Part shown: positions 14,906 through 54,379 of the stretch, one piece after another
Numbering within the stretch: the stretch's first letter is position 1
Layout of the letters: each line of letters starts with the position of its first letter
Assembly: GCA_025267735.1 (NCBI GenBank)
Contig: CM046311.1
Span: forward strand, 23,954,020 to 24,018,019
Reading direction: 5' to 3'
Length of the DNA: 64,000 nt
DNA from: Mactra quadrangularis
Taxonomy: Eukaryota > Mollusca > Bivalvia > Venerida > Mactridae
Notes under the pieces: generated by a model
The model's input: the letters and a program-made list of their open reading frames with translations, nothing else
What the model was told of the DNA's origin: nothing
Databases searched by the model: none
Program-made: the position numbers and the translations under genes

Positions 14906-14978
14906 ATGGATAGAGAGCTGTTGTTGATAAGAATGTTGTTGGTGATGGGCTGTGTGGAAAGAAATCCGGGGCCAACTG
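14906..14978 (+). CDS. Exon 1: hydrophobic leader with 2A-like motif
   Basis: An ATG in strong context (AAAG-ATG-G) opens a 24-codon exon. It encodes a Leu-rich leader (ELLLIRMLLVM) followed by GCVERNPGPT and a clean donor, ACTG/GTAAGA. NPGP preceded by a VE dipeptide is the core of 2A-like recoding peptides, in which the ribosome skips the Gly22-Pro23 bond. The usual Asp of D(V/I)ExNPGP is Cys here. N-terminal 2A peptides that double as signal sequences are described for sea-urchin NLR proteins. The exon ends in phase 1, exactly what exon 2 at 35174 needs (G + CT = Ala). Linking it to the HEPN-NACHT gene across a 20.2-kb intron is inference; it could belong to another transcript. Confidence 0.6.
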
Positions 14979-15163
14979 GTAAGACATTTTGTTCTATAAA
15001 CGATATCTGATTTCAAGAATCTTATCAAATTTGTTCCGTCGCTCTTTACAGGTTAAATAATAGAATTCTAGACCCAAACAGCTTGTTAAACTTGTTATTC
15101 TATTGTTGACAGTGAATTCCTTGACTAAATCTTTTTTAAGTTTTCATAGTTTTATATATTTTC

Positions 15164-15464
15164 ATAGGCGGATCCAGGGGGGGGGGGTCAGAGGGGTACA
15201 GACCCCCACTAGAATTTGGGAAATGTACTTGTCTATTAGTGTATTTCTTGCCTGTAAGTCATTTTTAAGTAGCATGAAGCAATTTTTCTCGGTGCTTAAC
15301 ATAGATTTGTTGGTACACGTAATGTAGGTTTTATTATCAACATGTTGCATTTTTTTGCAAAATGTGTATAATGTGGTTGTGGATCGAGGTTTAGACCCCC
15401 CCAGAAATGTTTTGACCCCCTAGAAAAGTTCGGACCCCTAGAAAAAATCCTGGATCCGACCCTG
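15164..15464. mobile_element. MITE with AGGCGGATCCAGG ends
   Basis: The left end reads ATAGGCGGATCCAGG and runs into a G tract and GACCCCC. The right end has CCTGGATCCGACCCT, inverted. Arms are rich in GACCCCC/GGGGGTC. No coding content. Confidence 0.75.
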
Positions 15465-16626
15465 CAATTTATAATTGTTCTAAGATAGAATGCCCTTAAA
15501 CCTACTCATCACACCAGGAAATTTGTTTACTTGAAGAATAGTTCATGTAATTAAAAAACCGATAGATTTAACTAAATTTTAAGTTATAATAAACAATTAT
15601 AAATCCAAAATGGCGGCTTAAATGGCGGATATGATCTTATAGTTCAGTATATATAATAAACATACATGGGCGGAAACAAAAACGTGTGGGTTTAAGTTTC
15701 AAGGTGTTTTTTTTTTGCTTTTGAATCTTTCTCCAGTTCGTAAAACTAGTTAATCCCACCTGATTATCTATTAGCAACTCAAGACTCAATGTGGAGTCCA
15801 TGATTACGGTTACGAAGCAAATTCAACCAGTTCTATTTTTTTAGCAATAATGTAATGTAAATAATGAAGTGTTTCCATAATGGCCTTGTTATTTGGTTAT
15901 AATGCCGTAGTGAACACCAAATCAGCCCTGAGTTTTAAGTCCAATATCATACAGTTAATTAGAAATTTTACTTATTTACTGGATAATAAATAACAGGCCA
16001 TTATGAAAACACTTAAGTCACCATCGTCGCAGATAGGGACCCTATGAAAACACTCCGATTGTACCAACATTCAAAATGGTGGTATTTTTGTGGAAGAAAA
16101 ATACGGCCTTCATGAGAAAACTCGACCATTACGAGATTCGGAATCAATCAAAATGCCTAAATCTCATAATAGCCGAAGCTTTTATTCAATGCCGTGTTTT
16201 TTCGTATTGGCCTATTATTTGGTTATTATGCCGTAGTGAACGCCATATCAGCCCTGAATTTGAAGTCCTATAGTATACAGTTTATTAATAATGTTACTTA
16301 TTAACTGGATTTAATGAAATGAAAATTTGATAAATAATTGGAATGGAAAAACTAATTTATTTCCAAAATGTAAGCCATTTAAATAAAGAAATATGAAATA
16401 AAATTGAATTTATATACAGTTAACAGTAGACAATTTATTATATATAATCTGAAACATATAAATAGCAAAATAAGCATGTGCCAAAAATGTGGAAGAAACT
16501 AATTGAGCTCTATTATTATCATTACACGAACAATTATACCGTCTGACTTGACTTAACTAGACTAAATTAGAATATGTGCTTAAATGTTCAAGTTTGCTTC
16601 AGTCTAATATTACATAACGATAGCAC
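15465..16626. repeat. Diverged internal duplication, otherwise unannotated
   Basis: Two phrases recur: GGTTATAATGCCGTAGTGAAC with a following ATCAGCCCTGA (near 15895 and 16216). This points to a local tandem duplication about 320 bp apart. No gene is recognised. Confidence 0.5.
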
Positions 16627-18592
16627 AATTCACTGTCTAGATCGTGAAACGGTGGCGATTTTCCGTGTCACGGTGTAGCCATATCAAGATGGCGGAAAAA
16701 CAACCATCCAAAAGGTACGTGTCGTTTTTTCATGATATTTTGAGAAATATTCGGGCCCAAACGCGTTATATAGTTTCATTTGATCCGTAAATGTATTAAC
16801 TAAAGGGCGGTTGTACTCACCTGACATGTCGCAAAGGATTTATGTGAATTAAAGCCACCAAAGTTCACGAATGACCATCTGTCAAACTTGAACCGAGAGA
16901 AGTGTATGACTTGATAAAATCGCCGTTAGTACGGCACTTACCGTGTTATAAATACGATTGTGGAATAATGAAATGCATGAAGTTATACCTTAAAATTGTA
17001 CAAGTTCTAATTTTTTTTGTTATGTCAAAACATGCCTACTTTCGTTTTTGTCTAAGCAACGGTTGAGATATTAGCTCCGGTGAAGATTTTCCGTAAGAAA
17101 TGACTCGGTGTTGCCATAAAAAGTGGACACGTCGTATACATTTGCGTGAAAGTGAACACGGTTCGGACACCCATTCAAACGCTAAACGCAACCATATCAT
17201 TTGAAGTAAATCACATTAGCATTATCCTTCGTATTTGCTATACATAAAAGCTCAATGTGTTCAATACGTAAATCTTTGCAGAAGCAAAGCCTAATTATGA
17301 ATCAGTTAGTATTATTTTATTCCCTCTATTCCAGATCGTCACCTTTGTATTGATACATAAAGAAATAATGTAGTATAGAAATACGAAACTGATACATATA
17401 AAGGCCCTTTTGTGACAAGACTAAACTTATATATTTCATAATTTTGTTATCCCCAGTGTCAAAATGGAAAAAGGTTATAAATGCTACTACTGTAAGTTTT
17501 CGAAATCTAATCTCCTAGCATGCAATTATCATTCAGTAGAAAAGCATACCAAATTGCAGCTTAAATGACGGATGAGATGGTTTAAAAACTATCAACCGGC
17601 TGATATGGCCTTCTGACGAAAGATTACAGACTTATACCAAATTTAGAACTGCAAACTGGGAAGTATTTCAAAGTGAATCAACATATATGTACATGTACAT
17701 CCTTTCTAGAAATTAAGAAGTGTCCTGATGTTAAAGACCTAGAAAGTATACAAGAATCTAAACAAGATATTTCTGTTGATATTGATGCAATTACTTCCCA
17801 GTCCAAATGTGAAAAACGTACAAAACGTCAGAACCAATGAAAGCACTCGGCAGTGTAACTTTAGCAGGTCCCTCTCAGCAAACGTTACTTCCATATACGT
17901 GGAATATGATGAACAGTTAGAAGATTTAAATTTGTCTACGATTTGACCAAACCCGTATCTGTTTTTTAACAAATACTGCTACGTTTTGCCTTGCCTACAT
18001 TTCGACCGTATTCAAAATAGTCTGGTCGCATTTCAAGCGTTTGAATGGGTGTCCTAACCGTGTTCTCTTTCACGCAAATGTATACACCGTGTCCACTTTT
18101 TATGGCAACACCGAATCATTTCTTACGGAAAATCTTCACCGGGGCTAATATCTCAACCGTTGCTTAGACAAAACCGAAAGTAGGCATGTTTTGACATAAC
18201 AAAATAAATTAGAACTTGTACAATTTCAAGGTATAATTTCATGCATGTACACTATCTCACAATCGTATTTATATCAAGGTAAGTGCCGTACTAACGGCGA
18301 TTTTATTAAAAGTAATACACTCTCTCGGTACAAATTTGACAGATCGTCATTCGTGAACTTTGGTGGCTTTAATTCACATTAATCCTTTGTGACATGATGA
18401 GTGCACCCACCCTTTAGTTAATACATTCACGGATCAAATGAAACTATATAGCGCGTTTGGGCCCGAATATTTCTCAAAATAACATGCAAAAAACGACACG
18501 TACCTTTTGGATGGTTGTTTTTCCGCCATCTTGATATGGCTACGCCGTGACACGGAAAATCGCCACCGTTTCACGATCTAGACAGTGAATTT
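16627..18592. mobile_element. 2-kb element with ~580-bp TIRs
   Basis: 16627-17210 and 18010-18592 are inverted copies, starting AATTCACTGTCTAGATCGTG at each outer end and staying very similar for most of their length. The left arm contains a start codon and splice donor of a small gene (see 16689-17568). The interior after that gene holds decayed coding-like sequence. Target duplications are not evident. Superfamily unknown. Confidence 0.8.
16689..17568 (+). CDS. Two-exon small zinc-finger ORF inside TIR element
   Basis: Exon 1 (16689-16714) starts at an AAG-ATG-G context and encodes MAEKQPSK, followed by donor AAAG/GTACGT. Exon 2 (17457-17568) follows acceptor TTATCCCCAG and joins in phase, encoding VKMEKGYKCYYCKF, then a short spacer, CNYHSVEKH and a TGA. 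The CxxC...HxxxxH pattern is C2H2-like. The joined product is about 45 residues. Decayed coding-like text after the stop (for example a DISVDIDAITSQSK segment near 17765-17810) suggests the original protein was longer and the stop is damage. The first exon lies within the terminal inverted repeat. Confidence 0.45.
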
Positions 18593-19325
18593 CTCTGGTC
18601 GTTTTTGTATATTGATAACAACATGTTCAAGTGACGACACAAATAACTGTTTACATAGTATTTTGCACTCAACATCCTTAGCACATCACTTGCAATGGTA
18701 AACTTTACACATCAATGCTTATTGTCTTAAGAAAGTATCCAAATGGATACTAGCTTATGGCCAAAAGATATCATAACTGTATTCACTTTTAATGTGGGAT
18801 AGGTGATCCAGATTTAAAAGCATATTTTACAGCCATGCTAATAGTGTACTTTCTTTATGCTGTAAATAACTGACTGACTTGTAACATTACATTTTGGACG
18901 AATGACAATTGAACGTATTGTTACAGTGTTACAAGATATATATTCCAAAATGAGTATCAGCACACCAATGTAGTCAGATATTTTGGTACTCGGCGAATTG
19001 CAGCAACAGTTATACAATTTTGTTGTCTGTGCTACTCGTATCAAGTATTAAAAGTTAATGCTATTAAACATATATGTAATGTTACCGAAAACATGAAAAA
19101 TCACCATATCTTGAAATGCATCGTCCATAATGTTTGGAATGGAACATTTTTGAATATTGCGAACAAGATCGACAAGTTATCTCAGCGTACCATTCTTCTT
19201 TGGAGGAGTCTTTGCAATTGGTAGTGAATATACTCCAAATGTGTTTAGTTACCAAGCCTGTTTAAACTTTTGACACTGATGCATCAGATATGTTATGTGT
19301 TCTTTCAAGATATTTAGACTTAAGT
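18593..19325. other. No gene recognised
   Basis: AT-rich sequence without convincing coding or repeat structure. Confidence 0.4.
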
Positions 19326-20580
19326 GCCATATTTTTGTAATTGATGAATCCCTTACAGCCACCATCTTGCACGGGGTAACATTATTTGCTAAATCATGAG
19401 CACACGAAATGTGAGTCCTGTGCATGAATTAGTTTTGAAAAAAATACCTTGTTTATCGTTCGATTAAAATTTTGTGCGAAAAATTCAACGCTACGAACGA
19501 AGCTAGGGATTTTTTGGGAAAAGAAAAGTGTGCTTGTTTTATGCACCGAGTGATGACATTCAAATATTTGTCAGGCAAGAGATATCGGCGAAGAGCATGT
19601 GCTTTTTTTATTAGTAATTGTTTTGACACCCGAGTCTGTAGCACAGTTGGTAGAGCACCGGTTTTTCAAATCTAGTGTCTCTAAGGATTGAGGGTTCGTA
19701 TCCCACCCGATAAGGTTATGTCTTTCCTTGAAAAATTGACAATTATGTCAATTATCCTGTATTAATAAGGTATATGGAGAAGTTGCCAACCTTGTTGAAG
19801 GGTAGTTGAGTACAGGTTATAGACAAGGGTCCAGGAAATCTAGGCTAGGTGCGCTGGACGCCGTTATGTAGATAAACAAGGACAAAATGATGAGTTGCTG
19901 TCACATGTTACGTACAAAATCTAATTTCTTATAGTTAATAGCATTTACCTGTGTTACTCAAGTCAGGTAATAATTCAAATTGTTTTTTGCATTCAAAATA
20001 AGTTTACTACTTAAAGAAATTTGATCGTTATAACCAAGCCTAGGGTTATTATTCGTAAAAACCGTGTGGTAATATGATAATGCTTCAACATAGATTTTGT
20101 TTAAAATCCATTTTCACAAAAGATATTTTTTTTCTTTATCACGTTGTCTTTATTTGTAAGGCTATTCAAAACTTAAATTTTTACTTAAAAATTTGCAGAC
20201 ACCCTTCTGACGATGAATACGTTTGTTATCTTAGCGTTTATTGGTCGATTATTTCAAAAATTTACTTCCGTGTTGCTCTTCATTCAATTGAAATTATATA
20301 ATAACGATCGCATAGTCCCATACTTCATCTGGCGAGTATGCAAATTTGTTTTGTATAAGTTTTATAAAACCGCAATCTACATTGCGAGTAATTGTATATA
20401 TCATGTTTACTTTTTAATAAATAATGTCGACAATAATGCTAGAATGCAGGCACGAGTGCATTGCAAGTTAAACAAGACACTGCTAAAATTTCTACTTCGC
20501 CATATTTTTGTAATTGATGAAACCCTTTAAGCCACCATCTTGGACAGGGTAACACTATTTGCTAAATCATGAGCTAGACA
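19326..20580. repeat. Pair of ~80-bp direct repeats flanking a SINE region
   Basis: 19326-19408 and 20499-20572 share the phrase CATATTTTTGTAATTGATGAA, GCCACCATCTTG and a following GGGTAACA..TTTGCTAAATCATGAG, in direct orientation 1.17 kb apart. The interval includes the SINE at 19628. This is either a segmental duplication or fragments of one dispersed repeat. Confidence 0.6.
19628..19888 (+). mobile_element. tRNA-headed SINE, copy 1
   Basis: The 5' part is tRNA-like: A box TAGCACAGTTGGTAGAGC and B box GGGTTCGTATCCC. The body shares GGTTATAGACAA..GTCCAGG and CGCTGGACGCCGT with the copy at 49746. The tRNA-like part drives Pol III transcription in such elements. The head is altered, so it is not a functional tRNA. 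Confidence 0.8.
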
Positions 20581-20669
20581 CTGGGTTCAAACAGCAGTGT
20601 ATACATCCAATTTCTGTCTACACTTGTAAATATAAAACAAATTATACTATATACTAGAATGTGTAAGTA

Positions 20670-21560
20670 AAATAATTGTGCAAATTGTGATTAAAGCACC
20701 AAATTTGGCAGTGAGGTACTTTGAGTCATACTGATTAATGTCAGCCTGGGAGACAATCAAAAGGGACCTTTCATCTTGCCTAAATGGGGCCCGAAAGGGG
20801 CACATAAATCGGCACATTGTTTTAAAATTATTATCTCTATAAAAATGATGGTTATTAAAATATATGTATTATGATTTTATATGCCTAAGAAAGTATATTG
20901 TACACTCAAAAATAGCTTTTTGCCAGTTTATTTGCAGTTGAGGCCCGGCATCTGCTTTGAACTTGTCATAAAGCCCTTAATTATGCATTGTGTAATGATA
21001 TTATTGAATAAATAATACATGTTTTATTTGAAATTATACAAATACATCAAACTTTATCAAAATAAGCCTTCAATAATTATTTTATGAACATACACCACAA
21101 TCAGCATGAGATACCATTGTATGAAACACTTGAGGCTCTGAAGGGGTTTATTATTTAACTCGAAATAAATAAATACCAAGTATGCCAATATACACTTTAT
21201 TCCAATTTAAACTGATATATTAAACTTACTACAGTTGTATATAAGAAACGTACATTCAAAATGACGATTATAAGTAATAATACTTATTTCTAAAAGTTGA
21301 GGCCCTAACTGGGGTAATTTTATAACGTGAAGCTTAAATAATTGTAAAAAAGGTCTAACCATGTTTTTTTAAACTTATGCTGTCATTACAAGTGAGTTAA
21401 ATTTCTACAATTCATACAACATATACAAGAAAGAATCTGGTATGGTTAAACGGTACCCAATTAAGAGAGTTATTATGATTGAACATGGATGTTTATTATA
21501 TTCATTACCGTTTTAGGCCTGTATAACTAGAGACTGTACGACCTGTTTTCGACCTAAATT
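20670..21560. repeat. GAGGCCC-containing repeat units
   Basis: Sequence around ATTGTGATTAAAGCACCAAA (20690) matches in inverted orientation 32740-32765, and GAGGCCC/GAGGCTC words recur at about 20940, 21130 and 21300. It appears to be an inverted relative of the tandem array at 30905-32790. No coding content. Confidence 0.55.
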
Positions 21561-23099
21561 ACAATACCACACTTCTGTTATGTATTAATAAAAGTTTTGA
21601 TAATATAACATCCTAGGCACCACTACCTTAGATACATTTCAAGTTCTAAAACAGTATGTGATCATGTTTTAATACAAGTCTATTATGATTTTGCATAATA
21701 AGATAGTCCTGTAAGAGACCACGCATAACCCCGACATCATACCCATGAAACTCGTAGTAATTTTAAAACAAATATGTACATTTTTATAGTTCAACAGAAT
21801 TAACCTGAGCTTGACCTTTATGCAAGAATATATTAAACTCAATATTTACAGTCTATTTTTGTCTTCGTTTGTAAATCGCGCTTTATCGGAAGCTTTCGGC
21901 AAAATACACTTACTGAACGATTAATGTTGTTTTCATAAGAATAAATACTTTGAAACTGTGCCATAATATTGCTGACTAACTTGTTTCCCCAAAAAACTAA
22001 TGTGTCCAAAATTAAAAGTACAATAACATGCCACTTTTAATAAATTGATTCTTGGCACATAGCATTTTCCCCTCGTCCAATCAGCTGTCGAGGATTGATG
22101 ATAGTAGAGATGTACTATATTGTATAGTATGGCGTTTAAAGACACAACTTATTCTAAATTTAGACACCTGTCTTGATGCTTTTTCGTGGTTAGATTTGAC
22201 AGCAGTATTTCAGTATGTTACGGTGAATGAACACAATTACTGAGGCACTGCAATGAGTGCATGAACCTAGTTCAAATGCTGTGTTGGTATATTTGTATTG
22301 AACAGCAAAAATAATTAATAAAAATTAATATGTCCCTTATTGACATCGTTCTTTGCCGTTTCGTGTTCGAGTTATCAAAACTTTGATGCAGCTTAAGTGA
22401 TTAAGTGTGCCAACATAGACATTGAGACATTGGATGCCAACGCCTGAGTGATAGTAATCGGCTCTCATTTTCTTCGAAACTAGCCGAACTAAACTGTTCT
22501 GTTTTACCGAGTTATATTTTCGCCATTTGTAACCCATATAATGGACAATTAAGAGGGTTTGGTAGCCAAATTTGGCATTGTGTAAGTACGCACCCAAAAT
22601 ATATATCATAATAAAATTATGTCTGACCGTTGACCAGCTAACAAAATTGTCGTTTGCTCAATTAAATTATGTCTGATGAATTTAATTTTATTTCTTTTAA
22701 TATGGTTTTCATTTTGACTTCAAGTCAAACAGTTAAGAACCCGATGCAGAGTTACCTGTTTTCCGAATAATAGCATGAAATCAAGTAAGAAACAATTTAC
22801 TTACATAATTCTGTAAGATATTCATTAATACAGTACATAAAACAGTAGTAACAATATTAATATATCTATGCGGGGCCTCAATTTATATCACATGCCAGCA
22901 AGCACGAGAAAGTCATGAAACATGTGATACTTGAAATTTCATCTCTAATATGATGTAACCACTATACTACAATTTTCTTTTGATGTCCAGGATTTATAAG
23001 TTGTGTCTTTAAAATGACCTACTTATAGCGTGTTGAACTTGGGGAAAATGCTCTTAAGGTTCCGTGCTCGGGGCTCCGCCCATCGCACTTAACCTTATA
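21561..23099. other. No gene recognised; short inverted homology to 25.1 kb
   Basis: Only a short match is evident: AGAATTAACCTGAGCTTGA near 21797 recurs inverted near 25108-25130. Open frames here have no recognisable domain. Confidence 0.4.
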
Positions 23100-25953: not shown

Positions 25954-26989
25954 TATAGTTCGTTTGCGTTAAAGCTGGACCCTTAAAATCATGAATTATC
26001 TCGATAACTATCGGATGGAATTAACTCAAATTTTGTATGTGATCATAACTAGCATTTTCCTTCTCAAATCCAAATATTCAGAATTTTTCTTTAATTACAT
26101 AACATACTTCCCATAGACATGCAATGCAAATTTTGAAGCCAAAAAGAGACTTTTGTTAAATGGGTATGTTCCATAATCAGAACAGCCATATTACAGTAGA
26201 TACAAATACTAGCTAAATATGAGGCCCGGTTAGAAATTTCATTTGATAACAAAGTACGGTATAGATAGATAGCGAAAACAACTTTTTTACGAAAACAACC
26301 TGTTAAATTACTGTGTGCCGATTGAGTGCATCGGACCGCATCAAATTATTTTTTAACCACAACTCGGTAGAAAATGCGCAAAAATCACCTCTGCAAAATT
26401 TAATAAGGATCTATTGGCTCGTTATAAAATAATCAAAATTTGAAAAGTGATCGGTTAGACATTTTGTTCAGTGCACTTATTTCAAACATAACTTAGTATA
26501 TTATGAATGCATTTAAAAATACTTTAAATGAGCAAGTTTTGATACAAATTTCCGAAAAATATTGACATTATAGCCGAATTTCTTATTTTAGTGGATCACA
26601 ATGGGAAATCGATTGAATTGCTACCGGTAATCTTGAAGTTCTTTACGAAAACAACATATAAAATGTTTATTTATCCATGTTTAGCATGGTAAAATCCTTT
26701 CCGTAATAAATATAATAATTGCATGCGTTTTTTCTAATTCACCTATTTGCAATAAATGAAAATCATGATGATATTACTGTTTTCCTTCACGAAAACAACT
26801 ATAGCTAACTGTTTAGCTTACGTACGAAAATAACAAACTGTGAAATAAAAAATATCTGTGTTTTTAATTATGTTCTTTTTAATCTCACATCGTTTCTTTA
26901 AGACATTTAATTGATGAGTAAATATAATAATAGGAAAAAACGAGATTTCATCCATCGTAAAAAACAACTATTTCTACGAAAAACAACAT

Positions 26990-27870
26990 TTCCTACGATA
27001 ACAGCTATCGGTCAGTCTCACGAAAACAACTATTCCTACGAAAACGACTTTTATAAGAAAACAACCATCAGTCCATCTCACGAAAACAACTTTTATACGA
27101 AAGCAACAATCAGTCAGTCTCACGAAAACAACCTTTTCTACGAAAACAATTATATATGAAAACTACAATTAGTCAAGCTCACGAAAACAACTTTTCCTAC
27201 AAAAACAACTTTCCTACGAAAACAACAATCAAGCAGCCTCACGAAAACAACTTTCCTACGAAAACAACAATCTGTCAGTCTCGCGAAAACTACTTTTCCT
27301 ACGAAAACAACTTTTATATAAAAACAACTATCAGTTAATCTTACGAAAACAGCTTTTATACGAAAGCAACAATCAGCCTAACTCACAAAATCAATTTTTT
27401 TCTACGAAAAAAACTTTTATATGAAAACAACAATCAGTCAATCCCACGAAAACACCTTTGTTACGAAGACAACTTTTTCTACGAAAACAACTTTGATACA
27501 AAAATACCAATCAGTCAGTCTACGAAAACAACTCTTATACGAAAACAACTATTAGTCAGTCTCACGAAAACAAGTTTTTCTACGAAAACAACTTTTATAC
27601 GAAAACAACAACCAGTCAGTCCAATAAAACAACTTTTATACGAAAACAATAATCAGTCAGTCCAATAAAACAACTTTTACATTAAAACAACTATCAGTCA
27701 TTCTTACAAAAACAACTTTTATACAAACGCAACAATCAGCTAAACTCACGAAATCAATTTTTTTTCTACAAGAACAACATTTATATGAAAACAACAATCA
27801 GTTAATCCTACGAAAACAACTTTGTTACGAAAACAACTTTTTATACGATAACAACATTTTACGAAAACAA
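26990..27870. repeat. ACGAAAACAAC minisatellite with 41/61-bp periods
   Basis: A ~20-bp sub-unit containing ACGAAAACAACTTTTAT is repeated over about 900 bp, punctuated by ATCAGTCAGTCTC phrases spaced alternately about 41 and 61 bp apart. Scattered copies of the core also occur at 26270-26300, 26640, 26790 and 26820. Because the units lack stops, two open frames (26911-27159 and 27156-27338) appear; they are not genes. Confidence 0.85.
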
Positions 27871-28046
27871 CAATGTAGTTGTAAAGATATTAAAGGTTTC
27901 TTATTCATATATCATAGACAATGGTCTGTCTCTAAGATTCATTATTAGGGTACTTTATTTTGGAATTTTTTTCATAAGTAGTCAGTCTCTTTTTCAGTTA
28001 TAATTAATTAAGCTAATAAATGTTCTTACATTTTTCCAAAAATTAA

Positions 28047-34420: not shown

Positions 34421-35173
34421 CAGCTCTAAACCAGAAGTATAACTTACTTCGTATGTACTTAGAAATCAGAATGACTTTCTGCTTTTGTTTCCTTTTACAT
34501 TACATAGTTATTGTTAATTGAAACAATAAAAACTACTAGTAACTATATGCATTGGAAAAAAGTCATGAATAATTACAAAAATGTGTTTATCCGTCGCTAT
34601 GACCCGTAAATACAACGTATCAAACTCCCCGCTGCGGTAATTTCGATTTGTTGAATGAAGAAGTATGAATGTGTGATGTGCAGTTTGACACTGTATTTAG
34701 TCTAGAAATATTTAGGTTTATAGCCATGTATGTTGGCATTCAATCATGTACCAGCATTACTCGTTTATTAATTCGTTAAAGTCATTTTAGTCAATTTAAT
34801 ATAAATTTTATTGCCTCGCCAGTTGTGATTTTTCCCTCAGCCTTTTATTATTTCAAATCATACACTTATACCACATGTGCACATAAAATTATTTTTTAAC
34901 TTTACACTTTTGGAAGAGCATCAATTTAGAAAAATTCGGGACAATTTGTATAATTTAAGCACATCCACTGTGCCTTATACTTCAACTGGATGTCTATATT
35001 GACCCAATATCATCCCACTATAAAATTTACACTAAAACCCAGTGATGTGATATGATTAGTTTTTAGAATCAGCCATTTAAGTTTAATTTTACTGTATTGC
35101 AATTGTAATACCGTAATCCCCATAATAATTTTGATATTACCCATTTGTGAAATAATGCTTTATGCTATTTCAG

Positions 35174-35526
35174 CTAAGGAATTCACCTTTCGGTATGAAT
35201 ATTTGCTGATAGAAGTTGGCACTAAGGTAATCCGAAAGGTTTTTGATGGAAAGGCAGTTCCAGATTTAATCACCTTCTTGACTAACCATCGTGCAAAACT
35301 TCAAATGATGATAAATAAGAAGATTATTACTCCTGCTCAAGAAGAATTATTACCACCCAAAGGAATGAACCCATCATCAGAACACTTTGATATAACACTT
35401 TTATGTTGCTTATTACGGAACGTATGTGGTTTACGCCCTCCAGGTGACAACGTTTGGATTCAGCCTGCATCTACTGATCATTCTCTTGAGGCATACATTA
35501 CGAGATTGAGATTATGTAGAAATAAT
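35174..35526 (+). CDS. Exon 2: DZIP3-like HEPN domain
   Basis: Acceptor GCTATTTCAG precedes the exon and donor AATAAT/GTAAGT follows. The 117 full codons encode the alpha-helical DZIP3/hRUL138-type HEPN domain: LLIEVGTKVIRKVFD, a middle KKIITPAQEELL, then FDITLLCCLLRNVCGL and a closing helix LEAYITRLRLCRNN. In animals this domain is fused to STAND ATPases, ankyrin repeats or other modules. The open frame upstream of 35174 is intron. The exon begins with two bases of a split codon, so an upstream phase-1 exon must exist; 14906-14978 fits. In the spliced protein this is residues 26-142. The terminal RNN is the first half of an Rx4H motif completed by exon 3. Confidence 0.85.
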
Positions 35527-36295: not shown

Positions 36296-36364
36296 GTATC
36301 ACACAGTGAAAGTGTACTTGAAGATCAAACTGTTCTGAAAAATAAGTGGACAGAGCTTTGTGAC
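36296..36364 (+). CDS. Exon 3: end of HEPN domain with catalytic His
   Basis: A 69-base exon between TATTTCAG and GAC/GTAAAT. It reads VSHSESVLEDQTVL then KNKWTELCD (residues 143-165) and joins exon 2 in phase. The junction creates RNNVSH: Arg140, a polar residue after it, and His145. That is the Rx4H signature of HEPN domains with RNase activity, and it is interrupted by a 769-bp intron. The frame continues past the donor to a TAA near 36410, which would give a truncated protein if the intron were retained. Confidence 0.75.
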
Positions 36365-41051: not shown

Positions 41052-41082
41052 ATATCATATCATATCATATCATATCATATCA
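41052..41082. repeat. ATATC microsatellite
   Basis: About six consecutive ATATC units. Confidence 0.9.
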
Positions 41083-42370: not shown

Positions 42371-45300
42371 ATAATAATAATAATAATAATATTTATTTGG
42401 CATAGTGTACACATAGTAAAAACATACAAACATAAATATCACAGACATTATGATGTTGTAATTATGTAATGCACACCAACACCAGGGATAACACAAACAA
42501 GGGCAAGCCCTTATTTCCATTGTGGTCCCTATGTGTTGGTGGCGTGACAAAGAGAGGCATTATTAAAATGGTGAAGACTGTTGCATAAAATTAAAACATA
42601 AAAAGATTTATCAAAGACATAGCAGATAATTGAAACATTGATATAATATGTGTATTAAATAATAAGCACCAGATAGATGTAATATTAAATCACAAAATTA
42701 TTCACAGAAGAAATATCCAAGATCACAGTTTAGTTTATAAAAATAAGATTAATCACATAAATAATTAAGTATCACAGTTATGCAGACAATTACAAATCTA
42801 TTCTCATATAATATTGAGGAATCACAGTTATGTTAATAATCACAGAAATATCTTAGTATCACAGTCAAGTTGGTAATCATGTGATTTAAATTGGACATAA
42901 TTTATCCATCACAAATAGTCTAGGTATGGCTTCATGGTAAAATACATCTAAGGTGGTCAAGCACAAACATAAATGTCATATAAGAAGGATTTGGTCAGTT
43001 ATAACTTAAAAATTATGTGGACCATGCCAAAATAATAGAGAAAATAAAAAACATACAAATATCTAAGATAAATTATCTAAAAAATACTGTTTCACAGTTT
43101 GTTTAAATTTAAACAGTTTTTTTATTAGTGTGATATCAGATGGTAAAGAGTTCCATAATGAGCAGCTTAAGTAGCAAAAAGATTTTAACCCAAAACTTTT
43201 GACTTTTGGTAAGGAAAAAGCACCTTTTTTACTTAGTCTTGTATTATAGTTGTGAATTGTGTCTTGAGAAGTAAAGTTATAAGACATGTAAGTAGGAGAC
43301 ATACCAAGTTTAATTTTTAAAAACATGACTAAGAATAATTTGATTAACTCTCTGTTTAACTGGTAACCAGTTAAGAAGTCTGAAATGTTCAGCTCCTACA
43401 TGAGCTCTAAAATCCATATTTAATACAAATCTTATCAATTTATTTTGGGTTGTTTGAAACTTATTTTTTAAAGATTGAGTCAATCCATGGTACCATATAG
43501 AGCATGAATAATCAAAATGACATTGTATTAAAGACATAATCAATAATTTTTTAGTATGCTGAGTAAGATAATCTTTTTTTCTATATAGGAACTTTAGTCT
43601 AGCATTAATTTTTTGAAGAATATTACGAGCCATGATCTCAAAAGATAAAGTTTGATCAAGTATAGCCCCTAGGTATTTAACAGAGGACGTTGGTTGAATA
43701 TATATTCCATTACATGAGACATGAAGATTATGATCAGATTTAAGTTTAAACTTGGATCCAAAAAGTATGGACTCGGTTTTACCAAGATGCAGAGACAACT
43801 TATTGTTTATTAACCATTCACTTATAAGATTAATATCAAGAGAAAGTCTGTTTTCAATATCATTCTTGTTCTTACCAGATACAAGAATGCCAGAATCGTC
43901 TGCATATAAAAGAAGTTTACTATTGATGACAGCAGACATGTCATTCACATAAATTAAAAATAAAAGAGGACCTAGTATGGATCCCTGAGGGACACCACAT
44001 GTTATAGGAGCAGTAGTAGAATGAGTACCAGCCACATCTACTAACTGGTGTCTATCAGAAAGATAAGATTTTAACCATAACAGTATATCGTTTCCTAAAC
44101 CAGATGCTTTTAGTTTCATGTGTAAAATTTCATGATCAACAGTGTCAAAAGCTTTTTTTAAATCCAAAAGTATCATACCAACAAGATTACCTTTATCCAT
44201 TTCAAGTCTGATATAATCAGTTAGATGTATTAAGCAAGTGTCAGTTGAAAAACCTCGTCTGAACCCTGATTGAAATTTATAAAATAAGTTGTTTTCATTA
44301 AAATGAAGTTCAATTTGATCATATACAACCTTTTCAAAAATTTTAGAAATAATGGTTAAAATTGAGACTGGCCTGTAATTGCCAACATTAGTTTTATCGT
44401 TCTTTTTGTAAAGAGGAACTACCCTAGCTAATTTTAAATCTTCAGGTACAACACCTTGTAATAAAGACAGATTGATGACATGAGCCAACGGACAGGCTAT
44501 GATAGAAGCACCATCTTTAACAAAACGAGATGGAATGTTATCTAAACCTGTGGATTTATTGACACCAAGGCTTGATAAATATTTAAAAACTTTGTTTTCA
44601 GACACTAATGAAAAAGAAAAACTGTCTAAACGGACTCCTTTATCAGAATAAAATTTATTGACAAATATCTTACCATATTTATTAACACATGTAGGTAGTT
44701 TGTTTACTAAGTTAGATGCAATAGAAGTGTAAAAAGAATTGAATGCTTCTGCTATTATATTTTTTTCAAAACAAATACCTGAATCTAATTTTAGACAAAT
44801 GTTAGCTTGAGATGATGATGAAGAACATTTTTTAGAGGGTAATCCAAGACTTTTAAGAGAATTCCATAGTGACTTAGAGTCATGTTTATTATGCTCCAAT
44901 GTATCAGAGAAATAGTTTATTTTTGCAGTGTGAATAGTTTCTTGTGTTTTATTTCTTAATGACTTAAAATGCTCATATTTTTCTTCATTTTTATTTTTCT
45001 TGAAATCATTATAAGATTTATCTCTCTGTTTTATCAAACATAATATTTCAGATGTCATCCATGGCTCCGTTCTTTGCTTAATACGAATTTGTTTTACGGG
45101 AGCAATGTTATCAATGACAGACAGAAAAATACTTTTAAATTTACTCCAAGCATCTAAAACATTGTCATTTAATAAAACTGAACTCCAATCAGCTGATAAT
45201 AAGTTAGCTTGTAAAATATCTCTGTTATAATTTTTTAGAGAACGCAATTTAACAGTATTATGAAGACATATGGGTGTTTTGGACACTTTTCTGGTACAAT

Positions 45301-45473
45301 ATATTAAAGAATGGTCACTAAAACAAGTATTAATTACTCCAGACTGACATACTTTTTCATGATCAGAAACAATGATTAAATCGATAGCAGTGGAACTCTT
45401 ATTGCAAACTCGTGTATAATCACAAATAAGTTGTTTAAAATTAAACATATCAATAAAAGAATTAAAAGAGGAA
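42371..45473 (-). mobile_element. 5'-truncated CR1/L2-like LINE
   Basis: The 3' end is at the left, with an ATT-type tail (AATAATAATAAT on the plus strand at 42371-42392). The 5' end is cut inside the endonuclease near 45473, where CGAAACGATACC sequence of the hAT resumes. It is about 3.1 kb. Short 3' microsatellite tails and 5' truncation are typical of CR1-type elements. Confidence 0.85.
43063..45448 (-). pseudogene. CR1-like reverse transcriptase, 5' truncated and frameshifted
   Basis: The frame opens within the last part of the APE endonuclease (TAIDLIIVSD, then CFSDHSLIYC). The RT domain follows in order: VVPLYKKNDKTNVGNYRPVS, FQSGFRRGFSTD, LDLKKAFDTVDHEIL, GVPQGSILGPLLFLIY, LLLYADDSGIL (near 43884-43915) and VKYLGAILDQ. 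The frame stops at 43310 after HVFKN, but the neighbouring frame continues IKLGMSPTYM...SLWNSLPSDI to 43063. One extra base in the T5A5 run near 43322 explains this. With the endonuclease mostly gone it cannot retrotranspose on its own. Confidence 0.9.
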
Positions 45474-45588
45474 AATAGAACGAAACGATACCGGTACCAA
45501 TGAAACGATACGGTATTTTTAATGATACCGATACCAATATACAGCCGTAGTACAAATTACAATGTTTAAATACAAATAACAAAAAAAT

Positions 45589-46581: not shown

Positions 46582-49500
46582 CTAGACTTTAAAAAATAAC
46601 GTTTAAGTAGCATGCTAATTTCCTGCAACACTGTGTCATTACTTGAATAATTATTTCAATTTGTATCAATTATCAATATGGATCAACACGGGGCATACTG
46701 GACGGTAATAGATGATATAATATACTTAACCAAAGTTTAGATCGAGTTAAATCCCTTTAAAATAGGACAAATACACCGAAGTCTTGAGATTAAAGCATCT
46801 AAAATTTCGTATTTGGTTATTTTAAATCTGCTCTATTTTGTTCAAAGTACCGATTTGAGTACCGGTACCAAAACGAAACGGTATTTACCGGAAATTTTCG
46901 AAACGATACCGATACTGGTACCGGTACTTGGTACCGGTATACATCCCTAGAACAGATTAACGATTATTTACAAATAATTTAAGACAAAGCATTTAGTTAG
47001 TATATTTAGTGTGACGACACACTTGAAAAAATCATAATATCTCAATAACTACATATGACAAACATGAACAGTATGTACTTACCTATATATATGCTTCCAT
47101 GGCATTAGTTTGATTTGTTTTATGTCGGAGAACATATACTAATGTTATAATGATCATATGATTTGGATATGTATACTTATGCAAATTAGGCGCATAAAGT
47201 AAAGTGATATCCATTTTCTCTATCCAAGTTAAAGTCAGTGTAAAGAACAAAGGTATTCTACATAAACTAAGAGCATGCATTGCTTATTATATTTAATTAT
47301 AGATAATTAAGATACGTGGTCTTTACAGTCATTAGATTGTAAAGAATATATAATAATTGTTTTTTTGCCCGTAATTTCTCCAATGACTTATTTCCCCTAC
47401 TAAAAATATGTTCTGTTATCAGTTTTTTGATATAATAAGGAAGATAAGTAAGGATGCATTCAAATGATTGTAAGAACATACTATTCAAAACAACTTTTAG
47501 TCAAAATAAAGTCGAAAATTTAGCCATACAAAGACAAATTAAGTGTGTGTAGCCATGATCATGTGCAACACACTCCGAGTTTAGCTATCCCAATTCAATT
47601 CTTGCAGATCATGACCTTTCGTGGTAGTCCAAAACACCCGGTTAGTCTGATTATCATGGCGTTACAGAATTTAGATTCCTGTTCACCTTGCAATAACCAA
47701 TTATGCTATAAACATTCATACAAATTATAGTTATCAAACATGCATGCAAGGTCTCATTGTCATATTTATGATTCTGAAAAGTTGAAAAGCAACTAATATT
47801 TATTTTATTGAACTTGCTAGCCATAGATTTATGTATACGACGTTCCTTAATGCTGGCTTTGTTATTATATATTTATATACATGCCTAGAACGTTCTATAT
47901 TATCTTGAGTAAATTAATTAGTGGAAACTATGAGCAAATGAATAAAGTTGACACATGTAGTTTCATGAATTTCTTTCCACAGTAAACACTGTCGAGAGGT
48001 CAAATCTGCACGAAAATAAGTAAGACTTTCCAGCTTCTACTATTGCCATGAAGTGCATGTATATCTATCAAATAGATGCTTAAATTATGTCAATATCAGG
48101 CTGTTTTTATGATAAGGAAACGCTTTTGAATTCAGTAGCTTTAATTTTACAATCAATTTTACGATGCACTATTCAAATTAATTTATTATTATTCCTTTTT
48201 TCGGTTCTGGCATAAAGGCACACCACTTCAATATGTAATATTGAGCTGAAAGCACAAGTGCGTAGGCCACACGGTAATAAGTAACACAATATAAACATTC
48301 ATTTTATATTAATACATTGATTAGGTGTGGTATATGAATGGTCTCATAATGTGGACGTTCTGGACATTGAAATCCAACCGAACATAAAATTGGGTCGCAA
48401 TTGACAGATTACTTGATTCAATTATATTTTCTGGAAAAATTCCTCTTTGAAGTACACTTAAATTTGAACAAAATAAATTCACTTCAAAAACAGTTCATTT
48501 GAAAAACCTTTTTTGCATACATTTGCATATGCAAATCATCTGATCATGCTGAATGTGGTATCATATGATAGCTAGATCCAATAAACATGGGTGCAGACAC
48601 ATATTTTAAAATCTTATCATGATTAGTTATCGTGTTATTAGCGAAAAACGGAATTTCGATTATGGCGGACCAAATTTGCATATTATGCTAATTGTTCAAG
48701 GATGACTGGATGTCATCACTTAATTTCTTAGGCAGCTCTGTTCAAAGGTATAGAAGCTGAATCAAAATTATCAAGGCATCAATAGAATGCTAGACAATGG
48801 CATGAATATTCATATGTAATGTTTGAGTCAAAATCCTACAATTTTTAACGTAATTTGAATATTTTTCATATCTTTATAGTATCATAAACTGATTAAATGT
48901 AATTATTTGATATATTTGTATTTAATATATATACAAAATTAGCATAATATAAACACATTTTACTCAAAATATCAATGTAAAAACTACAGACGTGGATTTG
49001 TATAGCGAAACGAATATTGTGTGTCGTTAAATACCTAATTTGCATAAATTTGCATATCTAAATGATCTGATCAAGCTGAAATTAGTACCATGTGATAGAT
49101 AGACCCTGAAAACATGGGTATAGATACATATTTCAATTTTGTATCTAAGTTGGTTATTGAGTTATTAGCGAAAAATGGAATTTTTATAATGGCGGACTTA
49201 ATTTGCATATTATGCAAATTGCTCAAGGATGACAGGGTGTCATCGCTCGGATTCTTATTCAGCACCTTTCAAAGATATAGAAACAGCAAAAAAACTTTGT
49301 GGGGACTCAAGTGCACGGTTCACCTCATATACTGCAGGACTATACCGAATTTAAATGCAGAGTTTTCAGTGGAAAACTGTACTTCAAGATTTTGTATGGC
49401 AAAAATAGGAAAATAAAACTTTTATTATATTTGGCAGTAATACAGGGTAGAGTAAACACGTCTCCTGCATTTTTACCCTACTCGATTCGTACTTGAATCT

Positions 49501-49745
49501 AATGTGTAAGAAGTAATCATTTGTGTGGATTTGTTAGATTTCATTGTGCACGAAAGTATATCTGTATTTCAATACTTTGATTATATTACTTTAATTCCAC
49601 ATGTTGATATTTATGTTTTATCATATCATGTTGTTTTATCATATATTTTCTTTATTTGGAACCATGATACTAATATATCCTTTAGAAATTGGTTGGAAGT
49701 AAGGTTCTTGATAAGCCTTGTTCCTCTAGATTTCCTTCAAATATA

Positions 49746-50036
49746 TAACCCGGGTCGATAGCGCAGTTGGTAGAGCGCCGTGATTTTTAATATTTTGTCC
49801 CGAGGGGGGGGGGCGGGTTCGAATCCCACCGGGGAGGTCATACCCTTTCATGAAAATTTTACAATAATATCAAATTCCCTCCATTGATTAAATAATATGG
49901 AAAAGCTTCTGACCTTATGGAAGGATAGGTGAGTACTGGTTATAGACAATGTTCCAGGGAAGCTATGTTAGGTACGCTGGACGCCGTGAAATGACGTAAA
50001 TTGTGTTGACACGGCGTAAAACCCAGTAAAGAAAAA
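49746..50036 (+). mobile_element. tRNA-headed SINE, copy 2, with 13-bp TSD
   Basis: Flanked by TCCTTCAAATATA on both sides (49733-49745, 50037-50049). A box ATAGCGCAGTTGGTAGAGCG and B box GGGTTCGAATCCC lie in the head, then a body with GGTTATAGACAATGTTCCAGG and GCTGGACGCCGT shared with copy 1, and a short A-rich tail. The intact target duplication marks LINE-mediated insertion and a fairly recent copy. Confidence 0.9.
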
Positions 50037-50049
50037 TCCTTCAAATATA

Positions 50050-50732
50050 AGGTGTGATTAAAAACATATTTTGTATTTGTTTTATAAAGTATGGTTGTAT
50101 AAATGTGTGCTAGTCTCAAGTGATGCATGTCAAAACAACGATCTTGAAAGTAAGACGCCATTTCAAGACAAGACATAGCCGATATCCAATATAAAAACGT
50201 TACATTTCTGAATTTCTGTAGCATTATCATTGACTTGTGACACCATATCAACACTTTTTGATATAGTCCATTCTAAGTAAATTTATCATGTAGTACAAAA
50301 AGTCCTATATATAAAACCCTCCGTAACTTATTTAAAAAATTAAAAATAGTCAAATTTGTCATCCGGATTTGGTACGTCTAATTTGGCGTTTATCAGTAAC
50401 AATTCGGGAAACGGTACCGTGTGGCTGGAATTAAGCGTTGTTAATAAAACGAAAGACAGGATTTTTTGGACTTAACGGAAACAAGGGAATAGTTCTACTT
50501 GCTGAGGTGACCTTTTGTAATTAATTTATTATAAAAAATTAATTATTGTATATACTGGCGATCTAATAGAGTTTGTTAAGAAAATAGCGTGATAACAACG
50601 AATTACACTCGTTTAAATCGCACACTAAAATCAGTGCAAGTTTTGCTACATCAAACTATATGGAAGCCGATAAGACCCTGCGTAACAGAATAATGTCCCA
50701 ATGTGAAATGAGATTCTTTCTTTATGTTGCAG
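50050..50732. other. End of intron 3, nothing recognised
   Basis: No feature apart from the pyrimidine-rich acceptor TTCTTTCTTTATGTTGCAG at its end. Confidence 0.5.
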
Positions 50733-50865
50733 ATTTTGAATGAACTCGGCAAGTTCTGCAACTTTACAGACTTACCAACATTAATAAAAACAGCTGAAAC
50801 TATTGTAATTGATCAACGTTTAAAGAAACGTTTTGAAGATGCACTCAAGTCATGGGATATATCAA
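50733..50865 (+). CDS. Exon 4: HEPN-NACHT linker
   Basis: The exon follows a strong acceptor and ends at CAA/GTAATA. It reads ILNELGKFCNF, then LIKTAETIVIDQRLKKRF and EDALKSWDIS (residues 166-209), predicted largely helical. It joins exon 3 in phase 0 and exon 5 in phase 1. The helical ILxELG segment looks like the final helix of the HEPN module, supporting continuity with exon 3 even though 14.4 kb of transposon-filled intron lies between. Confidence 0.75.
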
Positions 50866-51429
50866 GTAATATATTATTTTAATTCATGATAAAAGATTTT
50901 TGAACACTTGAAATAAATGAACAACAGCCACGAAAAGAAAATCTGTGATGAGGATTGAATCAAAACAGATTATGGTGGACTTATCAGGTGTTTTGTCAAA
51001 GAACGGAATAATATCAAATTGAAATTGAAACTTCCTGTGAAATTAATTAGGGACTTTAGTCAGTTATTTTTCCCTGATAAAATCTGAAGCAATCCAATTG
51101 ATAAGTAGGTCCTTACTGTTGGAATCCTCAGATTTTATCATTGAACTCCTATGTAAGGATAACAAAATATTTCATCTAATATCTTTCTTGTTAATGAAGA
51201 TATTTACAGAAGTAATGAAATTTGGATAGTTTTTTACCCTAAAAATACTTGGCTTGAATTTCAAACAAATTAAATGATTTACAAAGAAGTTATATAAGAT
51301 TTATTTTGGCAAATTGACATTGAAAAGTAAGGGTAAAATCCGAGTAATCCAACTAATTGGACCCACCTATTTGAAGAGTATACAAGGGGAAATAACTGAC
51401 TACGGTCTCTTATTGACTCCATAGAAATA

Positions 51430-51590
51430 TATGTAGGGTTCGAAACCCGGTCGCGGCAGGTCATACCCTATACATGAGTTGTCGGTTAGTACTGGTGATA
51501 GAAAGTGTCCAGGAAACCTATAGTAGGAAGAGCTGGTCATCGTGTATATGACCTATATTTGTGTTGAATGCGACATTAAAAAAATATATA
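51430..51590 (+). mobile_element. Degenerate 3' part of the same SINE
   Basis: B box GGGTTCGAAACCC near 51436, AGGTCATACCCT, GTCCAGGAAACCTA, and a CATCGTGTATATGACC..TGTGTTG tail correspond in order to copy 2. It ends about 80 bp before the exon 5 acceptor and supplies the spurious in-frame start at 51542. Confidence 0.75.
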
Positions 51591-51671
51591 TGTATATTGA
51601 TGTCATACACAGAGTGTATAAAAGTCTAAAAAAACGTAAATTTCATTTTACTTGTATATTTCTAATTTCAG

Positions 51672-54379
51672 CTATTCGACTGAAGTTAGTCGATATTTAC
51701 CAACAACAGTTTGAATTAATGCAATTGTGCCCATTAGTAGAGTACGAAAAAGGTCAGATATTTAACATTTATCAACTTCCAGAAATGGAAGTAGTGGACT
51801 ACCATAAAATAGAAAAACTACAAACAGAACAATCTCATTCTAGACATCCCTTGTTGGAATGGGAGGAGGGCATATTTCTTTCAAAACATAATATGATAAA
51901 ATGCAAGGATCTTTTTTGTAAAGGTGATGAGCAATGCAAAAACATCTATTTAACTGCAGATGCAGGACTTGGTAAAACGACATTTTCTAGAGTTATTGCT
52001 TTTTTATGGTCAAACTCAATAAGAGGTAATCAAATTGAAAATGCCCATTTACAGGCTTATGCCGATTATTTTGCTAGATTTGAATTTGTATTTCATGTGA
52101 ATTTACGAGATACTCAAGAGTTAAACGTGGTTTCCATGATTACAAATCAGTTGAAACCTCATTTTAGTGATGACAAATGTGTAAGTTTACATGAGACCAT
52201 TGAGCAAATTCTCATTAACCACGAATCACTTGTAATCTTGGATGGTCTTGATGAATGGGCCCCTAAACTAGTTGATAAACAAAAGTATGAATTACCAATA
52301 AGGCCAAAATCGCCTAAATGTGTGTATCTTACACTTTGCAGGCCATACAAAATAGAAAATGTTAGACTTTCAGAGTCTGAAATAGACCATCAGGTTAATA
52401 TAATTGGTTTTGATGAAGAAGCACAAAGGACCTATATTGCTGCTTTAATTCATCATATAAAGACTAAATATAAAGAAAGCATTGACTGTAAAGATTTCCT
52501 GGATGAAGTTGAAAATGCAGGACTTTCCTTTCTGTTGCACATTCCAATGATTACGTCTCATCTGGTTATGTTACGGACCGATCGTTCATTGACCTCAATG
52601 TCTAGGTCTATGATATATGGAAACATCATAGACATGCTTTTCAAGAAAGCTCATCAAAAAAACATTGTTATCCCGACCCAAACAAACTCTAATGTACTTC
52701 TTCCTGACGCTTTGTCTGATCTAAATTATCTTAAAGATAATTTTTCATTAGTTAGAAAATTATGCTTGTTATCTTACAGGTTATTGTTTGAGAATGATAT
52801 AAATATAACAAGTCTTGTTTTCACTACAGATCAGTTAGCTTCTGAACCGTATAATTTGTCCGAAGCGGAAACAAACTTATTTTGTCAAATTGGAATTTTG
52901 TCTAAAAGTCAAGTATTCAGAAAATTGGGAAAACAAGAACTTAAAGTAGGTTTCTTGCATAAAAGCTATTTGGAGTTTTTTGCGGCTGTGTACGTTTCTT
53001 CACTCGAGACAAGTAAAGTCTTAGATCTTTTCAATACATGTACAACCATAAACGACGTGTTGAAATTCGAACTTTTTCTAATATTCTATGCAGGGTTGTC
53101 ACCTGAAAGTATAAAGTCGTTGATTGCTAGAATTTACTCTCTTATATCAGACGATTTAATATTAAAAAGAAATCAGTCAATAAGAACACTAACAATATCT
53201 ATAAGTTGGGTAAAACTAGTATGTTTTATAGACATGATATTAATATGTTTCGTTGATGGATCTTGTGGAGGGGAAAATCCGATCCTTTTGCAGGATTTTG
53301 ACTTTGTCTCGCCTTTTCGAGAGAGACTTTATACCTATGACATGAAAAGTAGCACCATGATTTTAAAGCGGATGTTGTTGAATGGATCAAATGTCAAATA
53401 CCTCAGAGCTAGCGGGGATATGTATCATGGTGAATTTGAGGAAATAACAAATCTACAATGGTTATCAATAACCTGGCATGCAACTAAAAATTACCATGTA
53501 AAGTATAACGAGTTAATGTTACGAAACAAATCCTCATTACACGCAGTGCGCATTGGAGGTGCATTTCTAGAGTATGCAAAAATCACACCAGTTTTGCCTA
53601 TTAACTCACTAAAACATCTTACATCGATATTTCTAGTAAATCTTCAAATATCACACCAATGTTTACAAAATACTGTCAACTTTCTGTCTAATAATATTCT
53701 CATGGAATGTGTTACCATCTATGATGTGCATTGTTACGATCATCAGAAAAATGCACCTGATTGCACAATAGCAGGTGAGTTTATTGATTGTAATAAGCTG
53801 GAAAGTTTAGATTTAACATGCTCAGATATTTCATGTTCAAACGTGAATGTTTCTAGATTGAAGAAAATTTCGTTGTTTCCACTATCTCAAAATATTGCTG
53901 CGTGTTATGATGGTATATTTGTTCGTCTTCAACATGCATCAACACTTTCATTTCTTAATATAGATGGATCGAGTAAGATGCATATGCATAGTGATACTGT
54001 AAAACGTTTGATATCTTGTATTCCATTCCTTCCTTCTATAAAACACCTTTCATTGAAGAACATAGAAATACCGGACAATATTCATTTAACTCTACATCCT
54101 GATGCAACAGAATTAGATATTTATCTATGGGATGTGACTCTGAGTGATTCATGCTTTAAATCATTGGTTGATAATACACGTGTAACACGTGTATCAAAAA
54201 TACAAAAAGCTTCGTTTTGGAGTTGTTTCATTACACGAGCTGACCTGAAAAAAATGTCTCAAGATAAGTCGTATACTTATATGTATGATTATTTACAGAC
54301 AATTTCTACTGTAAACATTACAGACATTTCTAACTCTACCTTGGAATTCCACTCCAAAATTCGAAAAAAACTCTTATAG
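51672..54379 (+). CDS. Exon 5: NACHT ATPase with LRR-like tail (NLR-like)
   Basis: The main exon, 901 codons, of a predicted 1,111-residue protein. After an IRLKLVDIYQQQ linker comes the NACHT P-loop NTPase: Walker A TADAGLGKTT (residues 304-313; Lys311), Walker B LVILDGLDEW (396-405; Asp400, Asp403, Glu404), and a sensor-like LTLCRPYKI with Arg433. Winged-helix-like sequence follows (about 520-680). From about 783 on, Leu-rich degenerate repeats occur (LESLDLTCSDIS, IKHLSLKNIEIP, ATELDIYLWDV). Family knowledge: STAND ATPases of this type oligomerise after ligand sensing by the tail. The exon starts at acceptor AATTTCAG; the open frame back to 51542 is SINE and intron. A cytosolic innate-immune sensor with HEPN RNase-type effector is inferred. 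No orthologue is named. Confidence 0.88.

Follow-up and report, generated by a model that had tools for sequence, protein, structure and literature searches.

A StopGo/2A-type leader on a HEPN–NACHT–LRR gene of the clam Mactra quadrangularis and on its locally duplicated relatives

A stretch of 64,000 nucleotides from the clam Mactra quadrangularis (GCA_025267735.1, contig CM046311.1, positions 23,954,020 to 24,018,019; hereafter the window) holds five coding segments on its forward strand that a preliminary description, made from the letters alone, had joined into one protein with a 2A recoding leader, a DZIP3-type HEPN domain, a STAND ATPase and a tail resembling leucine-rich repeats (LRRs). 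The locus raises two questions: whether segments spread over some 39 kb are one gene, and what a leader of the StopGo (2A) kind, at which ribosomes skip a peptide bond, could do on a protein built like an NLR. From comparison with relatives and paralogues, we put at roughly 0.6 the probability that the gene is one member of a large clam family of NLR-type receptors, multiplied by local duplication, in which the DZIP3-type HEPN domain is a putative RNase effector and 2A skipping splits the product between the cytosol and the secretory route. Both halves of this arrangement are known, as 2A-led NLRs and as HEPN–NACHT–LRR proteins, and the combination is new as far as could be found: no report of it, or of any mollusc case, was met in the open-licence literature, subscription papers and preprints lying outside that search.

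The five exons and the four GT..AG introns between them join into an intact frame of 1,111 residues, the stop codon of which ends at 54379. Read from an upstream stop, the frame meets its first ATG at 14906, and the leader that this ATG opens is hydrophobic. The parts of the gene are as follows.

14906..14978, forward strand: exon 1, encoding the leader MDRELLLIRMLLVMGCVERNPGP, with the donor GTAAGA
14951-14974, forward strand: StopGo/2A core CVERNPGP, with the predicted skipped bond G22/P23 at 14971/14972
35155..35157, forward strand: in-frame ATG just 5' of the exon 2 acceptor, a possible start of a leaderless form
35174..35526, forward strand: exon 2, the bulk of the HEPN_DZIP3 domain, with the catalytic-type Arg140 at 35518-35520
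36296..36364, forward strand: exon 3, in which the R-x4-H motif is completed by His145 at 36302-36304
50733..50865, forward strand: exon 4, the end of the HEPN region, shorter than in paralogues with a coiled linker
51672..54379, forward strand: exon 5, with NACHT, a winged-helix/helical part, the LRR-like tail and the stop codon
54575..54580, forward strand: AATAAA, a candidate poly(A) signal

Predicted proteins of Mactra antiquata are single chains that contain the leader, HEPN, NACHT and the tail, and they match all five window exons in order, the leader included (E values of 7e-4 to 0.05 for the leader in 64 kb, among the M. antiquata matches listed); the exon 1/2, 2/3 and 3/4 junctions fit this alignment. 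Because these proteins match the five exons in order, and with the paralogues as further evidence, a chance joining of exons was ruled out. The motif R140-N-N-V-S-H145 is split by intron 2, and since it becomes whole only once exons 2 and 3 are joined, it too argues for one gene. No direct match to the joined sequence was found in the PDB.

Paralogues on C19, the contig that carries the window, give the same picture. Another 14 HEPN loci of C19 were examined, in 20 stretches (L009-L028); the leader exon lies within the examined stretch in 11 of the 14, and the genome-wide scan puts one upstream of the other three. Six loci were followed closely. All six keep the donor of the leader exon and both splice sites of exon 2, and they keep the exon 3, 4 and 5 acceptors wherever the motif scan located these sites, as it did in some loci but not in all; one of the six is the nearest copy, at C19:23.81 Mb, which may be broken. 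Exon order is also kept in the same-genome paralogues, with shorter introns. The pattern CVExNPGP occurs at 33 sites in the genome (0 for the reversed control), 28 of them on C19, the window's included, and every one of these 28 has a same-strand HEPN_DZIP3 exon 0.8–20.3 kb downstream; the window has the longest distance (20.3 kb), the 27 other sites lying 0.8–13.7 kb away. Counted from the other side, such a site precedes 28 of the 34 HEPN exons listed on C19, against 2 of 34 for the mirror arrangement within 30 kb. The structure, junctions, phases and length given in the preliminary description were borne out when the exons were rejoined, and its single-gene model is strongly supported by the M. 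antiquata chains, the splice sites in six paralogous loci and the 28 leader–HEPN pairs on C19, that is, by comparison with relatives and paralogues and not by transcripts.

The leader consists of a hydrophobic stretch (residues 5-15) followed by the 2A core, and its NPGP is the single occurrence of this motif across the six frames of the window. CVERNPGP departs from the classical core D(V/I)ExNPGP, with Cys in place of Asp at position 12 of the motif (p12), and agrees with the extended core (D/G/C/N)(V/I)ExNPGP, a definition from a 2026 study in which a D12C change is cited as functional (PMC12846837). All 12 cores compared, from the window and 11 M. antiquata proteins, conform to the extended pattern, and the exon is conserved. 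Relative to the window, the 12 leader exons from the window and 11 C19 loci carry 9 synonymous and 2 non-synonymous changes, where 43 synonymous and 164 non-synonymous changes are possible; mean dN and dS (non-synonymous and synonymous divergence) are 0.006 and 0.301. Divergence per base is 0.047 in the leader exon, 0.149 in the preceding 120 bases and 0.168 in the following intron. In these sequences the leader exon is thereby shown to be under purifying selection. Mean identity among the window and 11 M. antiquata sequences is 0.83 for the core octapeptide, 0.55 for the hydrophobic stretch, 0.36 for the seven residues after the core and 0.53 for HEPN.

Searches of the spliced protein with profile models placed the HEPN and NACHT domains above the Pfam cut-offs and gave no match to any Pfam LRR model. 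HEPN_DZIP3 (PF18738) is found at residues 56-172 with E=1.7e-27 (96.4 bits, cut-off 27) and NACHT (PF05729) at residues 303-468 with E=8e-7 (29.5 bits, narrowly above the cut-off of 26.7). The landmarks of the NACHT–LRR part, all in exon 5, are these.

51950..52447, forward strand: NACHT by Pfam, residues 303-468
51953-51982, forward strand: Walker A, TADAGLGKTT, aligned in 15 Mactra relatives
52229-52258, forward strand: Walker B, LVILDGLDEW, aligned in 14 Mactra relatives, with P0008 gapped there
52958..52960, forward strand: His639 in FLHKSYLEFFAA, a stretch that the profile alignment pairs with FFHKSFQEY of NLRC4
53261..54358, forward strand: LRR-like tail, limits approximate, from profile and fold of relatives

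In that alignment His639 would be the counterpart of a histidine with a known role in NLRs. The tail is identified as LRR by its profile likeness to NLRC4, NLRP3 and ribonuclease inhibitor, and the predicted fold of one relative is of NLR type with an LRR-like tail; no HEPN fold appeared among the structure matches listed for that relative, a list filled by its NLR part. The protein thus has the makings of an NLR: a NACHT domain with Walker A and B, a winged-helix/helical part with the conserved His and a C-terminal LRR. Within HEPN, R140-NNVS-H145 has the form R-x4-6-H, and the Arg is kept in 29 and the His in 28 of 30 aligned rows of relatives. The four domain claims of the preliminary description therefore hold: the DZIP3-type HEPN by its Pfam score, the RNase motif by its presence in that domain, the STAND ATPase by its Pfam score and intact, aligned Walker motifs, and the LRR-like tail by profile and relative's fold, not by Pfam. 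The preliminary interpretation as a whole is supported in part: its domain reading and single-gene model hold up well, and recoding, RNase activity and an immune role stay putative. The conserved motif, together with published inference for the domain, makes the HEPN effector a putative RNase. Searches against NCBIfam gave no real match for exon 5 (best 0.14) or for the relative P0002, and for the relative P0012 only coiled-coil-type matches under the cut-offs.

Among known systems, the vertebrate NLRC4, NOD2 and NLRP3 have the same order of NACHT, winged helix and LRR and match by profile and fold; their effector is a CARD or PYD rather than HEPN, and none is known to have a 2A leader. The closest likeness for the leader is SpNLR2A of the sea urchin Strongylocentrotus purpuratus, published in 2016 (PMC4981915), a gene family in which, as in the clam, a short N-terminal hydrophobic leader ends in a 2A core before NACHT–LRR. 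In that genome 2A is otherwise found in non-LTR retrotransposons, and the same seems to hold in the clam (eight sites, judged by eye). The two differ in effector (a DEATH domain is described for SpNLR2A, a HEPN putative RNase stands in the clam), in p12 (SpNLR2A leaders were sought with the classical Asp, whereas clam leaders have Cys in the window or Gly in the others read), in gene structure (the clam leader lies on its own exon 0.8–20 kb upstream, unlike SpNLR2A) and in standing, the echinoderm activity having been measured and the bivalve case being known from sequence alone. For the remainder of the protein the likeness is to the DZIP3/hRUL138-HEPN proteins with NACHT, and in some cases LRR, of bivalves and cnidarians, in which HEPN is likewise joined to NACHT (N-terminally in oyster), lineage-specific expansion is found and R-x4-6H is mostly kept (PMC9646362, PMC8260672, PMC3710099). 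The animal fusion of HEPN_DZIP3, NACHT and LRR and its expansion in oyster have been in print since 2013 (PMC3710099), and over 50 HEPN–NACHT proteins are counted in pearl oyster (PMC9646362) and 17 to 83 in anthozoans (PMC8260672). Neither '2A-like', 'NPGP', 'signal peptide' nor 'skipping' occurs in the pearl-oyster text (PMC9646362), and no 2A leader was seen in the Mercenaria or Ruditapes relatives compared. The parallel with prokaryotic defence proteins is sound and was itself drawn in 2013: bacterial HEPN-STAND proteins share a HEPN effector on a STAND-class NTPase (PMC3710099), whereas the clam NACHT–LRR part is of the animal NLR type. Membership in a known prokaryotic defence family was considered and rejected, no PADLOC family matching exon 2 or exon 5 at E<=1; the relative P0002 gave weak PADLOC matches only (RTasHEPN 0.0053, Cmr4 0.03).

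How far does the leader extend beyond C19? Across the genome (V/I/M)ExNPGP is found at 398 sites, against 3 for the reversed pattern; the first 100 of these (C1 to part of C6) were analysed, and HEPN_DZIP3 exons were scored for 150 of 202 candidates, some rows having stop codons inside the match. On C1-C5, a listed same-strand 2A site lies no more than 20 kb upstream of 27 of the 42 HEPN exons in the list (mirror 0 of 42) and no more than 40 kb upstream of 28 (mirror 2); conversely, 28 of the 100 2A sites are followed within 20 kb by a HEPN exon of the list. With 28 HEPN exons on C19 and 27 on C1-C5, at least 55 have a 2A site upstream, so that StopGo, described as rarely used in cellular genes (PMC12846837), seems to head a whole family here. 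The HEPN_DZIP3 exons scored lie in many clusters genome-wide, including C14, C11, C13 and C8. Gly stands at p12, within a G(V/I)ExNPGP core, in seven leaders from other contigs (e.g. FIGTLLVMAGVERNPGP) and in those of the 11 M. antiquata relatives.

A 33-row tree groups the window with 14 Mactra proteins in a single clade (100/100). On this tree, the root of which is not fixed, the leader changes state three times, possibly through a gain followed by two losses. NPGP is present in 11 of the 16 M. antiquata matches and in none of the other 177 proteins compared (the third homologue search contributing 120 of 389 matches). Of the other five, P0009 and P0013 have NPGT, P0010 and P0088 no NPGP, and P0014 lacks its N-terminus; in the first four the predicted chain opens with a Met aligned to the interior of the leader, and these four are possible natural loss variants.

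Of eight 2A sites with no listed HEPN exon nearby (L037-L044), several look, from their translations, like the starts of retrotransposon-like open reading frames (ORFs); the cores at these sites carry Asp, Gly or Cys at p12. There thus seem to be two kinds of 2A user in the genome, retrotransposons and NLR-type genes, which is also what was reported for the sea urchin (PMC4981915). At L029 (C5:30691600-30694400) seven VExNPGP sites lie about 204 bp apart, six in one frame; a tandem-2A polyprotein at C5:30692288-30693528 was considered and rejected in favour of a leader-exon-derived repeat array full of stops.

If the leader works as its core predicts, most ribosomes would skip the Gly22-Pro23 bond, so that a peptide of 22 residues is released and the sensor, now beginning with Pro23, is cytosolic, and those that do not skip would deliver a leader-fused form into the secretory route, as measured for the sea-urchin NLR leader. 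A ligand at the LRR tail would, in the cytosol, switch the NACHT ATPase to an oligomer, which would bring HEPN domains together as active RNases cutting viral or host RNA. Activation in this form would follow the general NLR scheme, and the protein is a likely intracellular immune sensor. The sea-urchin leader recodes at about 80% when tested, and its recoding-dead mutant directs most of the cargo to the Golgi (PMC4981915). Given the hydrophobicity of the clam leader, it is plausible that it too has such a double use in targeting. A natural sequence with Cys at p12 has been measured at above 95% (PMC12846837).

Several observations weigh against this interpretation. That natural Cys sequence is viral; D12A abolishes the 2A of foot-and-mouth disease virus, and upstream context matters (PMC12846837); and the Arg at p15 of the window core falls outside the residues favoured in that paper. 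The window leader has an 11-residue hydropathy maximum of 2.42, the lowest among 11 compared, and signal character was judged by hydropathy alone. The p value for the leader substitutions, 2.6e-5, is a guide only, variants being taken as independent though the loci are related. In-frame ATGs at M10 and M14 of the leader and at 35155 permit leaderless products, and the absence of NPGP in 5 of 16 M. antiquata matches makes the leader seem dispensable in some members. Six of the 34 listed C19 HEPN exons (at 5.28–5.34 and 46.8–46.95 Mb) have no CVExNPGP site upstream, and 15 of the 42 on C1-C5 have no listed 2A site in range. The M. antiquata chains are themselves predictions. The short exon 4 of the window, discussed below, is common only to L017, one of nine paralogues and possibly a broken copy.

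The leader might instead be a conserved signal peptide or membrane anchor in which NPGP is a relic or otherwise used, with no recoding and the protein in or at the secretory route. All leaders compared have the hydrophobic stretch, the window core departs from the classical Asp and two Mactra members have NPGT; the core is nevertheless better conserved than the hydrophobic stretch, and no core among the 12 falls outside the extended motif. A NACHT–LRR protein of cytosolic type also makes little sense as a purely secreted one, and we consider this explanation unlikely. Quite unlikely, in our judgement, is a gene that includes the leader exon and makes mainly a leaderless product from another first exon or ATG, with the 2A leader limited to a tissue or state. 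The ATG at 35155 would serve such a product, and the Mercenaria and Ruditapes relatives and the five M. antiquata matches are modelled without an NPGP leader, but selection acts on the leader and 28 HEPN exons of C19 have one leader each. It is doubtful, too, that HEPN is an RNA-binding or oligomerising N-terminal domain with no RNase activity in a protein that signals: some HEPN families are catalytically dead (PMC3710099), yet the motif residues are kept in nearly all aligned rows, and 194 of 202 pearl-oyster proteins with the domain retain the motif (PMC9646362).

Finally, the exons could come from separate genes or a decayed locus, the 39-kb gene being an artefact of joining. Intron 1 spans 20 kb, intron 3 spans 14 kb and contains a retrotransposon, and the relatives' linker between HEPN and NACHT is absent: this stretch is 11 residues in the window against 39-255 in 15 aligned Mactra relatives. 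A missed linker exon in intron 4 was rejected, since eight of nine paralogues have the linker (WDEMEN...) as the last part of exon 4; exon 4 of the window and of L017, the ninth, ends earlier, at a GTAATA donor. When the linkers of five relatives were compared with intron 4, in three frames and against shuffled sequences, P0005 reached nominal values of 0.005 and 0.02 among the 15 tests, which is not convincing. The shortening looks like a derived trait common to close copies, with no exon missed. The sole paralogue that shares it (C19:23.81 Mb) seems broken in exon 5, and for this reason the artefact was given more weight. Against it stand the intact frame, the paralogues with the same exon order and shorter introns, the Mactra chains, and L017 with the same short exon 4 and donor; we regard it as very improbable. 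That nearest paralogue, which includes L017-L018 (C19:23.82-23.84 Mb), has an exon 5 open for only 559 residues and may be broken.

Should the proposed 2A-led receptor family be real, it would give a second animal lineage, outside the echinoderms, with 2A-led NLR-type receptors, and the clam would be the first case found in which the 2A-led protein is a putative RNase. What 2A leaders do for an immune receptor becomes testable, natural variants within one gene family (Cys or Gly at p12, NPGT, leader lost) forming a ready-made panel. A more far-reaching proposal, which we hold only tentatively and think rather less than probable, is that two animal phyla independently put a StopGo switch on expanded NLR families, the motif being captured from mobile elements, as suggested by the retrotransposons of the same genomes that carry it. 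In the clam the switch would control an RNase, and skipping efficiency would set the cytosolic and secretory shares, with the leader sensing translational state (infection, ribosome stress). If true, the StopGo leader would be a translational-state sensor built into an immune receptor family.

Elsewhere in the window, Rfam and tRNA scans found nothing, Pfam gave nothing over cut-off for ten other ORFs, and exon 5 DNA had no near match among plasmids, as expected. A retrotransposon at 9778-14046 (reverse strand) has an ORF1 of 327 residues and an endonuclease/reverse-transcriptase ORF2 of 1,094 residues that share a frame, with just one TAG between them (GAC TAG GGG). As no Met is seen in ORF2 before about residue 210, translation of its endonuclease seems to depend on reading through the stop or on non-AUG initiation; predicted RNA structure after the stop of this LINE was not significant (z -1.08). 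Inside intron 3, on the reverse strand, 43310-45556 holds a reverse-transcriptase ORF of 748 residues (RVT_1). Tandem repeat arrays lie at 26960-27871 (inside intron 1), 8950-9385 and 62986-63161.

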